From NCBI GenBank assembly GCA_003448685.1, contig DLXW01000010.1, positions 1 to 6,839 on the forward strand: 6,839 nt of DNA, read 5' to 3'. The notes below the pieces were generated by a model, which had not been told where the DNA came from, did not search any database, and saw nothing but the letters and a program-made list of their open reading frames with translations. Made by a program: the position numbers and the translations under genes. Source of the stretch: Cyanothece sp. UBA12306 (GTDB taxonomy: Bacteria; Cyanobacteriota; Cyanobacteriia; Cyanobacteriales; Microcystaceae). The stretch's first letter is position 1, and each line of letters starts with the position of its first letter. This document shows positions 794-6,839 of the stretch, in pieces.

Positions 794-845
794 AGTCTGG
801 GGGATTTAGAAACCCCGACTCCTCAAAAGTCGGGGTGGTTCATTG
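794..845 (+). repeat. IS200/IS605 right-end hairpin / relic of the TnpB guide-RNA scaffold
   Basis: CCCCGACT (813-820) pairs perfectly with AGTCGGGG (828-835) across a 7-base loop. The same CCCCGACT can also pair with AGTCtGGGG at 794-802, so two hairpins compete. TGGTTCATTG follows. In studied TnpB systems the 3' end of the element is transcribed as the omega/re RNA and the guide is the flanking DNA immediately outside the right end. By that rule the guide here would be the bases from about 846 on, just before the receiver gene start. That role is inference; the pairing is seen directly. Confidence 0.6.
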
Positions 846-873
846 TAGTAAACGGTATTTATCAATCAATCAT

Positions 874-1251
874 ATGTCTTTAATTCTCATTGTAGATGAT
901 TCCGCTTTATCACGTATTATGACCCGTAGAATATTACAAGCGCAGAATCATACGACTCTAGAAGCTGCTGATGGACAACAAGGAATCGAAATGGCCCGCC
1001 ATAAGCAACCTGCTTGTATTTTGTTAGATCTGTTAATCCCTGAACTTAGTGGCTTTGAATTTCTCGAAATTGTGCAGAAAGAAAGGTTGAACATACCAGT
1101 TATTGTTATTACTGCCGATCTCCAAGAAACTACTAAGGCTAAATGCAAAGCATTAGGGGCATTCTCTATTCTTCATAAACCTCCCAAGGCACAAAAACTA
1201 GAAAATGAACTCTCTAAAGTCCTTCTTATTAACCAAGAGGAGACAAATTAA
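874..1251 (+). CDS. CheY-like single-domain response regulator
   Basis: A 125-residue stand-alone receiver with no output domain. All key residues are visible: acidic pair D8-D9 (ILIVDDS), phospho-acceptor D52 (ILLDLLIPELSG), switch T80 (VIVITAD) and K102 followed by P-P (LHKPP). It would take phosphate from a histidine kinase and pass the signal by protein contact. I start it at ATG 874: the longer reading from GTG 835 would begin inside the transposon hairpin and add 13 residues foreign to the family. No clear Shine-Dalgarno precedes 874. Its stop overlaps the next start by one base (TAATG), so the downstream CheC-like protein is probably translationally coupled. CheC proteins dephosphorylate CheY-P, so the pair is likely a matched regulator and phosphatase. 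No kinase or chemoreceptor is in the window. The IS remnant ends about 25-30 bases upstream and may have replaced or supplied the promoter. Confidence 0.93.
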   Translation: MSLILIVDDSALSRIMTRRILQAQNHTTLEAADGQQGIEMARHKQPACILLDLLIPELSGFEFLEIVQKERLNIPVIVITADLQETTKAKCKALGAFSILHKPPKAQKLENELSKVLLINQEETN

Positions 1252-1874
1252 TGCTAACCAAACTTGAAGCAATTAGTGTCTTACAAGAAGTAATTAATAT
1301 TGGTGTGGGAAAAGCAGCTAGTATCCTCAATGAGATGGTTGGAACCCACATAAGATTACAGATACCTTGGGTAGATATTCTCCCTTTTGAATTGGCTAAA
1401 CAAGAATTAGAGAAAAGATTAGGAGAAGATAATCTTTCTACGGTTGAACTTCGATTTACAGGAACTTTACAAGGAAGTGCTGATTTAGTTTTTTCCACAG
1501 ATAGTGCTTCTAAATTAGTGGATTTAGTGACAGAAGAATCTCCAGAAACTTCTGATCTAGATTTCCTGAAAATCGGCGTTCTTACTGAGGTAGGAAATAT
1601 TGTGATTAGTGGTATTATGGGAGTGGTAAGTAATTTATTGAAACAAGAATTTTCCTATTCTATCCCTAGTTATATTGAGGGCAGTATTGACCAGTTTTTT
1701 GACTATAGTTGCCAAGATTTAAACACAACTATTCTTTTAGCACAAACTAATTTTGTTATTGAAAGTATGAATATTAACGGAGACATTATTATTGTATTTA
1801 ATCTAGGATATTTTGATAACTTAATGATCGCCATTAATCAATTTTGTGACCAAGAAATAAAGGACAATGAATGA
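1251..1874 (+). CDS. cheC: CheC-like CheY-P phosphatase
   Basis: 207 residues, the size of CheC. The family active-site pattern (D/S)-x3-E-x2-N-x22-P is found at the N-terminus as S9, E13, N16, P39 with exactly 22 residues between N and P. A second copy in the C-terminal half has E113, N116 and P139, again with 22 residues between, but glycine 109 stands where D/S is expected. CheC family proteins hydrolyse the aspartyl phosphate of CheY; the middle segment (about 60-105) is the beta-rich part. A strong SD (GAGGAG) lies 8 bases before ATG 1251, and the start overlaps the receiver stop. The stop overlaps the start of the cyclase gene by 8 bases. In this order the protein probably sets the lifetime of the phosphorylated receiver encoded just upstream. 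The gene could be CheX-like in detail, but two E-x2-N sites favour CheC. Confidence 0.85.
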   Translation: MLTKLEAISVLQEVINIGVGKAASILNEMVGTHIRLQIPWVDILPFELAKQELEKRLGEDNLSTVELRFTGTLQGSADLVFSTDSASKLVDLVTEESPETSDLDFLKIGVLTEVGNIVISGIMGVVSNLLKQEFSYSIPSYIEGSIDQFFDYSCQDLNTTILLAQTNFVIESMNINGDIIIVFNLGYFDNLMIAINQFCDQEIKDNE

Positions 1875-3336
1875 GATTGAATTAGCATATAATAAATTTT
1901 ATAGTTTGAACTTTGTTCCGGTAGGAATCTGTATTATTAAGGAAGACTTTACTATTATTTTTTGGAATAAATGCCTGGAAGAATGGACTAAAACACCGAG
2001 AGAACAAATTTTAGGACAAGATATTACGAGATATTTTCCTCATCTTAACCAACCAAAATATAAGATACGTATTCAACAAATTTTTCAGGGTTCTCCCCCT
2101 ACAATTTTTTCTTCTCAACTCCATAAACATTTTTTTCCAACAACTTTAGTTAATCAAACATTACAAATTCAACAGACAACTATTGTTGGTCTTCCTAATC
2201 AGGAAGATTACTATGCGCTCATAGTAATACAAGATGTTACCGACATGACAACTCGTTTAGAAAACTGTCGCATTATTCAGAACAAAAGTTTAGCAGAAGT
2301 TGCCGAAAGAAAACAAGCACAAGAAGAACTATTGAAAAAAACAACAGAATTAGAACAGCGAAATATTGATCTAATCTATCTTAATGACATGAGTGAATTG
2401 CTGCAAGCTTGTCTTAGCTTTGAAGAAGTATATAAAGCTGTTTCTCAATCGGCTAAATTACTATTTCAAGAATTAAATGGTGGTTTATTTATTATTAATC
2501 AGTCTGAGCAAATTGTAGAACAAGTTGCTAGTTGGGGTAACCTAAAGAAAAGCAATAAAAAATTTACTAAACAAGATTGTTGGGCTTTAAGAAAAGGACA
2601 AACCCATCTGATGAGTTCACTTTATCATCAACTACCGTGTCAACATTTAGAAATCCTTGCTGTTGAGTCTTATTGTATCCCTTTAATCATTGAAGGAAAC
2701 CCGATAGGAATACTTTATTTGAGCTCAGAAAAACCAGGTCAATTAACCGAAATAAAACAATTATTAGCAACTAATGTAAGCAGACATATTTCCTTAGCTT
2801 TAGCTAACATCAAACTCTGTCAAACTTTGCATAATCAAAGTATCCGTGATGCTTTAACTGGACTTTATAATAGACGATATCTCGAAGAATCTCTAGAAAA
2901 AGAGTTAGAAAGGGCTAAACGTGGACAGCGATCGCTAGGAATTATTATGATTGATGTTGACCATTTTAAAAAATTTAATGATACTTTTGGTCATGATATG
3001 GGAGATATGGTTTTGAGAAAGTTAGGGGGTTTTCTTCAAAGCAATATTCGAGGTTCAGATATTGCCTGTCGCTTTGGAGGAGAAGAATTAACCCTAATTC
3101 TTCCAGAAGCTTCCCTAGAAAATACCAAACAAAGGGCTGAACAATTGCGTCAAGGAGTTAAAAATCTCGATTTAGACCCCTGCAATCAAGTTTTAACCAT
3201 CTCTTTGGGGGTAGCTTGTTTTCCCGATCATGGCTCTTCAAAACAAATTTTGCTCAAAACTGCTGATCAAGCACTTTATCAAGCTAAACGAGAAGGACGC
3301 GATCGCGTTGTTTGTTATCAGATCCCAGAAACCTAG
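1867..3336 (+). CDS. PAS-GAF-GGDEF diguanylate cyclase
   Basis: 489 residues, cytoplasmic, no membrane segment seen. Order: PAS-like domain at about 12-130 (VGICIIKEDFTIIFWNKCLEEW), a glutamine/glutamate-rich coiled linker at about 132-168, a GAF domain at about 172-315 with the cyanobacterial DCWALRKGQ segment at 237-245, then GGDEF at about 325-486. Catalytic features: D363 in MIDVDHFKKFND, and signature GGEEL at 404-408, a variant of GG(D/E)EF with L instead of F last. The inhibitory I-site R395-G-S-D398 sits five residues before it, as in product-inhibited enzymes. The expected reaction is 2 GTP to c-di-GMP. The start at 1867 lies inside the end of cheC (8-base overlap) with AAGGAC close upstream, so this is the last gene of the receiver-cheC-cyclase operon. 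There is no receiver domain of its own; the separate CheY-like protein may be its phospho-input, which is inference. The GAF lacks an obvious bilin-lyase cysteine motif that I could place with confidence. Confidence 0.93.
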   Translation: MNEIELAYNKFYSLNFVPVGICIIKEDFTIIFWNKCLEEWTKTPREQILGQDITRYFPHLNQPKYKIRIQQIFQGSPPTIFSSQLHKHFFPTTLVNQTLQIQQTTIVGLPNQEDYYALIVIQDVTDMTTRLENCRIIQNKSLAEVAERKQAQEELLKKTTELEQRNIDLIYLNDMSELLQACLSFEEVYKAVSQSAKLLFQELNGGLFIINQSEQIVEQVASWGNLKKSNKKFTKQDCWALRKGQTHLMSSLYHQLPCQHLEILAVESYCIPLIIEGNPIGILYLSSEKPGQLTEIKQLLATNVSRHISLALANIKLCQTLHNQSIRDALTGLYNRRYLEESLEKELERAKRGQRSLGIIMIDVDHFKKFNDTFGHDMGDMVLRKLGGFLQSNIRGSDIACRFGGEELTLILPEASLENTKQRAEQLRQGVKNLDLDPCNQVLTISLGVACFPDHGSSKQILLKTADQALYQAKREGRDRVVCYQIPET

Positions 3337-3356
3337 GATCATCCCAAAACAAAATT

Positions 3357-3384
3357 ATTAACTATTAACTATTAACTATTAACT
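3357..3384. repeat. Heptamer tandem repeat, four copies of ATTAACT
   Basis: Four perfect head-to-tail copies of a 7-base unit lie between the convergent cyclase and metallophosphoesterase genes. Read on the minus strand, the last three sense codons (V-N-S) and the TAA stop of the phosphoesterase gene are inside the repeat. Such short heptamer arrays are a known feature of cyanobacterial genomes. Confidence 0.9.
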
Positions 3385-4070
3385 AAACTAGGTTTAAATT
3401 GATCAATCGAAGCAGTTTTGATTTTACCTTTTTGATTAGCTTGCCAAATTTTACCAGTTTCCACTTCTAAACAGGTTAACCAACCCTCACCACAGGCCCA
3501 AGTATCAATACAAATTCGATGACCTAAATTAATAGGGTTTCCATTTTTCTGACTCGTATGACCACAAATCATTGTCTTTCCTGAATAGTGGGAAACGCGA
3601 TAGTCAAATTTTCTCCAAAATAACTCATAATCTGATTGTCTTTTCATTGATAAATGAGGATCAAGATTGGCATGAACAAAAATATTACTGTCTGTTTCCC
3701 AATAATCTAAACAAATATTTTCAATAAAATACCAATGTTCATTGGGAATATTAGATAAAGTACTTTGTCTCCCTAATTTTGCATAGGAATCTAACGTCTC
3801 TTTTCCTCCCATGTCTAACCATAAATGTTTCTCAGAAATGTTATGGCGTGATTGTATCATCTGGATTTCATGGTTACCTTTTAAGGCAATTAATTGGTAA
3901 TGCTGAGATAGATGAATTAACTTGTCTAAAACTCCTTTAGTATCAGGCCCTTTATCAACATAATCCCCTAAAGTAATTAAGACATCTTGTGGCTTTAATT
4001 GAACTGTTTCTAGTAAAGTCTCTAGGGCATTAGAACAGCCATGAACATCAGTGATTGCTAGGGTTCTCAT
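3372..4070 (-). CDS. PPP-type metallophosphoesterase (serine/threonine phosphatase or Ap4A hydrolase-like)
   Basis: 232 residues from ATG 4068-4070, which has AGGTGGG 5-6 bases upstream. An upstream GTG at 4077-4079 would add three residues but places the SD directly against the start. The two-metal motifs of calcineurin-like esterases are all present: D8-V-H10-G, G35-D36-Y-V-D39-K-G, G65-N66-H67-E68, a late FVHANLD histidine and ICGHT. The layout DxH, GDxxDxG, GNHE with small size matches bacterial PPP phosphatases and the ApaH/PrpE group. Substrate cannot be told from sequence: phosphoserine/threonine proteins or dinucleoside polyphosphates are the main options. The gene lies downstream of the eda-like gene on the same strand with an 83-base gap, so it may be co-transcribed or have its own promoter. 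Its C-terminal codons run into the heptamer repeat, so the final residues are probably not conserved. Confidence 0.9.
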   Translation of the reverse strand: MRTLAITDVHGCSNALETLLETVQLKPQDVLITLGDYVDKGPDTKGVLDKLIHLSQHYQLIALKGNHEIQMIQSRHNISEKHLWLDMGGKETLDSYAKLGRQSTLSNIPNEHWYFIENICLDYWETDSNIFVHANLDPHLSMKRQSDYELFWRKFDYRVSHYSGKTMICGHTSQKNGNPINLGHRICIDTWACGEGWLTCLEVETGKIWQANQKGKIKTASIDQFKPSLVNS

Positions 4071-4153: not shown

Positions 4154-4822
4154 TTAAATATTCATTAACTTCAAATTATCTAACAGTATTTTTGCTCTTT
4201 GAGTAACATTTTCCCAATCTTGAGTCTTAATAGCTTCTGGGGGGAATAATTGACCGGATAAACCTACCGCGATCGCCCCTGCTTCAATAAATTTAGCAGC
4301 ATTATCTAGGGTAACCCCTCCGGTAGGAATCAGGGGAATAGACCCCAACGGACCTTGCAAACCCTTAATATAGCCGATTCCGCCCATCGCTTGCACGGGG
4401 AAAACCGTAACACAACTAGCTCCCAATTGCCAGGCGGTAAAAATTTCGGTGGGGGATAACGCCCCAGGAATAATAGGAATTTGTGCTTGAATTGCGGTTT
4501 GAATGAGGTTAGGACTGACGTGAGGGGTAAAGCAAAATTGAACCTTAGCGGCGATCGCTAACTCTAACTGTTCAGTTGTCAAAATCGTGCCAGTTCCGAT
4601 GGTACATTGGGGTAGTTCTTGCCGTAACTGAGCAATTAATTGGGCAGGTTCTCGACTATTCCAGGTAATCTCAATCAGATTAATTCCTCCAGCCGCCACG
4701 GCTTTGGCCATTTTGAGTCCTATTTCAAGATCTAATGTCCGAATAACCGCAATCGCCCGATTTTCTACCAATAAACCCCGCCACCGCTCTGATTTTGTCT
4801 GATAAGCTTCTGAATTTGACAA
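4154..4822 (-). CDS. eda: KDPG/KHG aldolase family protein (Eda-like), catalytic lysine not conserved
   Basis: 222 residues, the usual TIM-barrel size of KDPG aldolases. Recognisable parts: AVIRTLD (25-31), LIEITWN (49-55), IGTGTIL (75-81), FTPHVSP (98-104), IPIIPGALSPTE (115-126), VTVFPVQAMGG (138-148) and IPTGGV (165-170). The family cleaves 2-keto-3-deoxy-6-phosphogluconate to pyruvate and glyceraldehyde-3-phosphate (Entner-Doudoroff). By eye against E. coli Eda, the base E45 is kept as E51 and T73 as T79, but R49 aligns with N55 and the Schiff-base K133 (KFFPA) aligns with T139 (TVFPV). The annotated activity is therefore doubtful. No edd is nearby. The start is a TTG at 4820-4822: an in-frame TGA lies 9 bases further up, no ATG is in frame before M38, and AGGA is only two bases before the TTG. 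It is divergent from the ABC ATPase gene. Confidence 0.8.
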   Translation of the reverse strand: MSNSEAYQTKSERWRGLLVENRAIAVIRTLDLEIGLKMAKAVAAGGINLIEITWNSREPAQLIAQLRQELPQCTIGTGTILTTEQLELAIAAKVQFCFTPHVSPNLIQTAIQAQIPIIPGALSPTEIFTAWQLGASCVTVFPVQAMGGIGYIKGLQGPLGSIPLIPTGGVTLDNAAKFIEAGAIAVGLSGQLFPPEAIKTQDWENVTQRAKILLDNLKLMNI

Positions 4823-5723: not shown

Positions 5724-6542
5724 TTAATATAAAGACATCATCAACTCTTGTTGATATTTTTTAGTTAAAGAATGGTTATTACCCAAAAGATTAAAGATGG
5801 AAATCATCGTTTTTCTGGCACCATCGTTTCTATATTGACGATTCTGTTCTACCATTTGTAAGAACAGTCTTAATGCTCCTTCATAGTCTTCTGCTAAAGT
5901 TAATTGAGCGCCTTTAGCAAATAGTTGATCCAAGTCACTTTCCCCAGGATTTTCTACTATTTGCTTCAGGTCAATTATAGTTTGCATTGATTGGGCTTTT
6001 GCATAATATTTCTGATTTTCTACCCCAATAGTTTTGAGAATTTTTTTAGCTTCTTCTAAACGATGAACGCGAATCAAAAAACTAGCGGCTTCGAGAATTA
6101 CGTCAGGATTATTTGGGTACTTAGCAAACAATTCATCAAACAGTTGCTTCGCTTGAGGGGCATTTTGATTAGCGATCGCCTGACGCACTGCTTCGATTTT
6201 TAAAACTAGCTCCGATTGTAAGTTAAATTTTCCTAATAATTCTCTTATATCGTCCTCTGGTAACACCCCGACAAACCCAGGAATTATTTCTCCCTTAGTT
6301 GCTATTTTAACATCAGGAACTCCTTCTACACTATATCTTTGAGCTAATTGGGGATGTTGATCAATATCAATTTTTGCTAAGATAAAATCATATTCTATTA
6401 ATAAACTTTCTAGGATCGGTTTTAATAATTGACAAGGGCCACACCAAGTAGCATAAAAATCAATTAAAACTGGTTTTTTAAAAGAATTTTCAATAACTTC
6501 AACCTGAAAATTATCTTGATCAACATCGACTACATAGCCCAT
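5724..6542 (-). CDS. Thioredoxin-TPR protein, YbbN/CnoX-like co-chaperone
   Basis: 272 residues. Residues 1-107 form a thioredoxin domain with W33-C34-G35-P36-C37 and the cis-proline at V75-P76. The rest (about 115-272) is helical with TPR-like pairs (for example NAPQAKQLFDELFAKYPNNP and EDYEGALRLFLQM), the architecture of YbbN/CnoX. That family holds proteins under oxidative stress and hands them to chaperones. E. coli YbbN lacks the CxxC pair, whereas here both cysteines are present, so the protein may also reduce disulphides. No signal peptide, so cytoplasmic. ATG 6540-6542 has a good GAGGTG about 6 bases upstream. The stop lies 3 bases from that of the convergent ABC gene. A TATAAT on the minus strand (6589-6594) could be its -10, but I see no good -35. 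Confidence 0.9.
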   Translation of the reverse strand: MGYVVDVDQDNFQVEVIENSFKKPVLIDFYATWCGPCQLLKPILESLLIEYDFILAKIDIDQHPQLAQRYSVEGVPDVKIATKGEIIPGFVGVLPEDDIRELLGKFNLQSELVLKIEAVRQAIANQNAPQAKQLFDELFAKYPNNPDVILEAASFLIRVHRLEEAKKILKTIGVENQKYYAKAQSMQTIIDLKQIVENPGESDLDQLFAKGAQLTLAEDYEGALRLFLQMVEQNRQYRNDGARKTMISIFNLLGNNHSLTKKYQQELMMSLY

Positions 6543-6766: not shown

Positions 6767-6839
6767 ATTCTAAATTCTAAATTCTAAATTCTAAATTCTA
6801 CATTCTAAATTCTACATTCTAAATTCTACATTCTACATT
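6767..6839. repeat. Heptamer tandem repeat ATTCTAA/ATTCTAC, at least ten copies
   Basis: Ten complete 7-base units run from 6767 to 6836 and the array continues past the window edge. Only the last base of the unit varies. In order the units end A, A, A, A, C, A, C, A, C, C. The phase is never broken, so growth by slippage or unequal exchange is likely. Same unit length as the ATTAACT array at 3357 but a different sequence. Confidence 0.95.

Follow-up and report, generated by a model that had tools for sequence, protein, structure and literature searches.

Does the eda-like gene in this stretch of DNA still encode a working aldolase? The window, by which we mean the whole 6,839-nucleotide stretch analyzed here, carries a gene of the KDPG/KHG aldolase family whose product has a threonine, T139, where class I enzymes of this family carry their Schiff-base lysine on strand 6. 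The initial annotation, made from the sequence alone, had drawn attention to this residue and to N55, found in place of the E. coli substrate arginine R49, and had suggested that the protein may use another reaction or another lysine. The features concerned are as follows.

4154..4822, minus strand: eda-like gene (KDPG/KHG aldolase family), 222 amino acids, TTG start, intact frame
4739..4741, minus strand: codon for R28, aligned with T. maritima Arg17 and with V22 of E. coli
4670..4672, minus strand: codon for E51, glutamate retained as in E. coli (E45) and T. maritima (E40)
4658..4660, minus strand: codon for N55 (E. coli R49 position), the main-clade norm and no defect
4586..4588, minus strand: codon for T79, threonine retained as in E. 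coli (T73)
4406..4408, minus strand: codon ACG for T139, at the position of E. coli K133 and T. maritima K129
4364..4366, minus strand: codon for K153, which the model puts on an outer helix and not in the barrel
4322..4324, minus strand: codon for T167, threonine retained as in E. coli (T161) and T. maritima (T156); the engineered-lysine site in PDB 1fwr

The reading that we favor, and to which we give about an even chance, is that a recent and likely inactivating substitution has struck the only Eda copy found in this genome.

The family assignment of the gene was clear. Its product matched PF01081 with 146.2 bits (cut-off 27.8) and NF005673, the NCBIfam equivalog for bifunctional KHG/KDPG aldolase of the PRK07455 type, with 346.6 bits (cut-off 232), and judged by its sequence the gene is a cyanobacterial Eda. 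A second Eda copy that could cover for it was looked for and rejected, as PF01081 had a single match in the genome assembly (370 contigs, 4.65 Mb, 87.7% complete). Amongst the best 120 of 4,542 database proteins found, the closest besides the window's own, at 80% identity, was P0003, an Eda from Rippkaea orientalis, whose genome, G334, is assigned to the window genome's own genus. This protein equals the window protein in length within one residue and shares its R28/E51/N55/T79/T167/PTGG pattern, but it has a lysine where the window protein has T139.

For comparison we used 216 distinct homologues besides the window protein, comprising 187 of the main clade (111 proteins and 76 loci) and 29 loci of a small-genome family. 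These were what remained of the best 120 database proteins and of 139 loci among the matches listed, once duplicates in the core region and copies of the window protein itself had been removed; one homologue (L016) came from a draft genome outside the cyanobacteria. The E. coli Eda reference sequence was identical to PDB 1eua over 213 residues.

In these alignments T139 fell on the Schiff-base lysine K133 of E. coli Eda, and the window has no lysine at that position, as the initial annotation had claimed. The column held lysine in all 187 main-clade and all 29 small-genome homologues, and T139 was the window's only departure among the 45 columns with at least 97% agreement in the main set. Because the lysine is kept in all 216 sequences compared, T139 is peculiar to one sequence and not a property of cyanobacterial Eda; the suggestion that cyanobacterial homologues share the loss, whether across the phylum or within the genus, was thus rejected (0/216). 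At the codon level, the 30 genes compared from the window's family (of 33 family eda matches, the remaining three not being included) had AAA in 22 cases, AAG in seven and ACG in the window alone. A search of plasmids gave no match, and no report of a natural Eda lacking the Schiff-base lysine was found in the openly accessible literature searched; the one paper to come up on a catalytic lysine uses the term for Rubisco. The further claim that a class I aldolase needs this lysine was also supported, an enzyme without it being predicted to be dead.

The second proposed lesion did not survive the comparison. That asparagine stands in for R49 was correct, but the column held N in 176/187 main-clade homologues and R in none, and in the small-genome family it was variable, with R in 1/29. 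The reading of N55 as a defect was therefore rejected, since R28 on strand 1 holds the place of Arg17 of the Thermotoga enzyme and was arginine in 187/187 main-clade homologues (27/29 in the small-genome family, with lysine in the other two). We also aligned the protein to the designed aldolase chains of PDB 9dnd, whose numbering runs in step with that of Thermotoga 1wa3 (346 bits over residues 6-182 of each). There R28, E51, T139 and T167 fell on R17, E40, K129 and T156, and T44 stood in the R49 column. In its account of the Thermotoga enzyme, the human HOGA paper gives Arg17, Glu40, Lys129 and Thr156 as the active site and describes pyruvate on Lys129 as interacting with Arg17 (PMC3188589). 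The Thermotoga maritima KDPG aldolase (1wa3, 1vlw) thus has the Schiff-base Lys129, unlike the window protein (PMC3188589). For E. coli, the active site is described as Lys133 with Glu45, Arg49, Thr73, Pro94 and Phe135 (PMC5334617). Set against each other, the two lists indicate that two substrate-arginine arrangements exist, and both arginines probably do the same job. Main-clade cyanobacterial Eda follows the Thermotoga arrangement, and for this reason a missing R49 is no mark of a defective Eda; as a general correction, its lack should not lead to such a label.

The other landmarks named in the initial annotation were all present in the alignment to E. coli Eda, with E51 at E45, T79 at T73 and the PTGG loop (P166-G169) retained. 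The small-genome family (L088-L116) was more divergent in this respect: AAGG replaced PTGG in 28/29, and GTGT had its final G replaced by A and its final T by S, in 27/29 each. The lysine was nevertheless kept in 29/29. The substrate of this family may differ. For the window protein, an AlphaFold2 model had the barrel fold of the family with a pLDDT of 96.5, a prediction that gives the positions of residues and not the stability of the protein, as AlphaFold2 barely senses point mutations.

Under the favored reading, a recent point substitution from AAG to ACG would have placed threonine at the Schiff-base lysine of a protein that is predicted to fold normally, with T139 as its sole departure from near-fixed family residues. 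N55 would play no part, an arginine of the Thermotoga type being present on strand 1. Without the lysine no covalent pyruvate intermediate would form, and we propose that cleavage of KDPG or 4-hydroxy-2-oxoglutarate would be lost as a result. The base would then be real, catalysis probably lost and the gene at an early stage of decay. If the base is indeed real, the T139 protein is a natural catalytic-lysine null in an otherwise untouched Eda, and such a null could separate lost catalysis from lost protein in the phenotypes of cyanobacterial eda deletions.

The timing of the change was addressed through rates of substitution. Between the window eda and that of R. orientalis, dN was 0.138 and dS 0.975 (dN/dS 0.14), and amino-acid changes polarized by the majority of eight other genes numbered 16 on the window branch vs 17 on the R. 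orientalis branch. Measured by dN to the outgroups, the window was further away than R. orientalis in 7/8, by 0.006 to 0.034. This excess was small for the five outgroups of the same genus; for the remaining three, from different genera, it amounted to some 13 non-synonymous changes, and even at face value the resulting 39 vs 26 changes were not significant (p 0.14). In a simple binomial calculation, an unconstrained share of the branch above roughly 13% was unlikely on the polarized counts, and above roughly 22% with the three least favorable outgroups. The window eda has been under strong constraint over most of its branch, with an acceleration that is at most slight and non-significant. Long-lasting relaxed selection was rejected on these grounds (dN/dS, the 16 vs 17 changes and the binomial limits). 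Given the constraint, the loss of the lysine was a late event, unless the base call is in error.

The distribution of eda bears on whether a loss could be borne. A match was found in 376/388 genomes of the class and in 32/50 of the window's family; the 18 family genomes in which none was found comprised 12/12 of genus g3, 2/2 of g190, 3/3 of g191 and one of g194, and 17 of the 18 were at least 90% complete. This suggests that eda has been lost repeatedly in the family and, as three of its genera had no eda in the genomes searched, that a null allele could be tolerated. A separate observation concerns genome G427, where an intact eda match on one contig is accompanied by another, at 435-1007 of contig C222, that is interrupted by two in-frame stops.

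The close rival to a real substitution, short of an even chance but a serious contender, is a consensus base error in the draft assembly, the true codon being AAG and the enzyme an ordinary active Eda. T139 is known from a single, unreplicated assembly (370 contigs, 87.7% complete), ACG is one base away from AAG, and all other features of the gene that we examined are those of a functional Eda; that no further clear mark of decay is seen agrees as well with an error as with a recent substitution. P0002, the sole protein with the same residue in the best 120 of 4,542 database proteins, was rejected as independent support, since its contig, at 44,469 bases, is exactly as long as that of the window. 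Against an error stand the intact eda reading frame and a control on four genes, in which departures were counted at columns invariant among all other genomes. The genome that contains the window (G000) departed at 0/664 such columns in rpoB, 2/332 in atpA, 0/337 in ilvD and 1/61 in eda, for a total of 3/1,394, vs 120/37,349 over all genomes compared, itself included, and thus had no excess. Partial or paralogous loci were omitted from this count (L171 and L172 for rpoB, L200-L202 for atpA, L227-L229 for ilvD). The control gave no sign of a noisy assembly but bounds the error rate only loosely. Both atpA departures (L189), D114N and K457Q, lie where the other 26 genomes agree, and K457Q is also an A-to-C change. 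The codon of the sister is AAA, so that a single-step change to ACG requires AAG; AAG accounts for 21/106 lysine codons in the window genes, a share that weighs on a real change and on a base error alike. Should the base be wrong, the case would show how an active enzyme may be mistaken for a dead one when only one draft assembly is at hand.

An improbable reading is that of a pseudoenzyme, which would no longer cleave its substrates but would still bind keto acids or partners in a regulatory or structural role. The strong constraint on the gene is in line with it, as are the modeled fold and the binding residues, which appear intact. A regulatory role of Synechocystis Eda in glycogen metabolism is under discussion, and a section of a review proposes a regulatory layer for Eda besides its metabolic activity, but the same section ends by favoring a lost moonlighting aldolase reaction as likely (PMC11257934). 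In addition, the change is too recent or isolated to indicate that a dead form has been conserved, and no relative shares it. We hold it very improbable that this is a natural dead Eda, folded and ligand-binding, that is kept without aldolase chemistry for a non-catalytic regulatory role. Were it true, the gene would be a separation-of-function allele supplied by nature, of use in the debate on how Eda acts in the control of glycogen and carbon.

The initial annotation had itself named K153 as a possible substitute lysine. In the model, none of the eight barrel strands holds a lysine, which answers its question of whether one enters the barrel. Of the protein's nine lysines, eight lie in helices and the ninth, K93, sits in the loop just before strand 4. 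The helix that carries K153 is an outer one, and the K153 column is also lysine in 130/187 relatives that carry the normal lysine as well, so that the suggestion could not be upheld. E. coli Eda with both K133Q and T161K reportedly keeps activity. That enzyme (PDB 1fwr) likewise lacks a lysine at 133, but it was engineered with a lysine at 161, where the window protein has T167. Although this mutant was made and its structure solved, the threonine at the matching position, the placement of the nine lysines and the absence of change in any further near-fixed column leave the use of another lysine or another chemistry, as in an aldolase for a different substrate, the least probable reading of all. 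A shift to another reaction, as had been suggested, likewise found no backing in the near-fixed columns or in the at most slight, non-significant acceleration. We return to a recent substitution as the reading that we prefer.

What the gene says about the Entner-Doudoroff pathway is a separate matter. A scan of seven proteins encoded in the window found no edd product, as had been noted from the sequence. In the genome (87.7% complete) no genuine 6-phosphogluconate dehydratase was found: the one match to the edd model reached 257 bits (cut-off 708), at a locus that scored 819 bits as ilvD (cut-off 618). The caution that eda alone is no proof of the pathway was right, but it is already in the literature, where it is based on the absence of the dehydratase (PMC10847513, PMC9424857 and PMC11257934). 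Bachhar and Jablonsky put the occurrence of the pathway at ~1% or 47%, depending on ilvD (PMC9424857), and Evans et al. conclude that most cyanobacteria are without a genuine EDD (PMC10847513). According to the review, Evans et al. proved that cyanobacterial Eda homologues are active (PMC11257934); the relevant section of Evans et al. deals with the enzymes of soybean and E. coli and reports soybean EDA to be active and promiscuous (PMC10847513). As a side observation, ilvD of another family member (G425, contig C36; L227, L229) lies in two adjacent frames, which may reflect a broken gene or an assembly fault.

Other features of the window were also recorded. Three consecutive genes on the plus strand (835-3336) encode receiver-domain, CheC/CheX-like and PAS-GAF-GGDEF proteins, and together look like a small signaling operon. 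On the minus strand, 5724-6542 encodes a fusion of TPR repeats and a thioredoxin domain (WCGPC motif), presumably resembling YbbN/CnoX. Two tandem arrays of 7-base units are present, TATTAAC at 3356-3385 (4.3 copies) and ATTCTAA at 6767-6839 (10.4 copies), which we take to be like the heptamer repeats of cyanobacteria.
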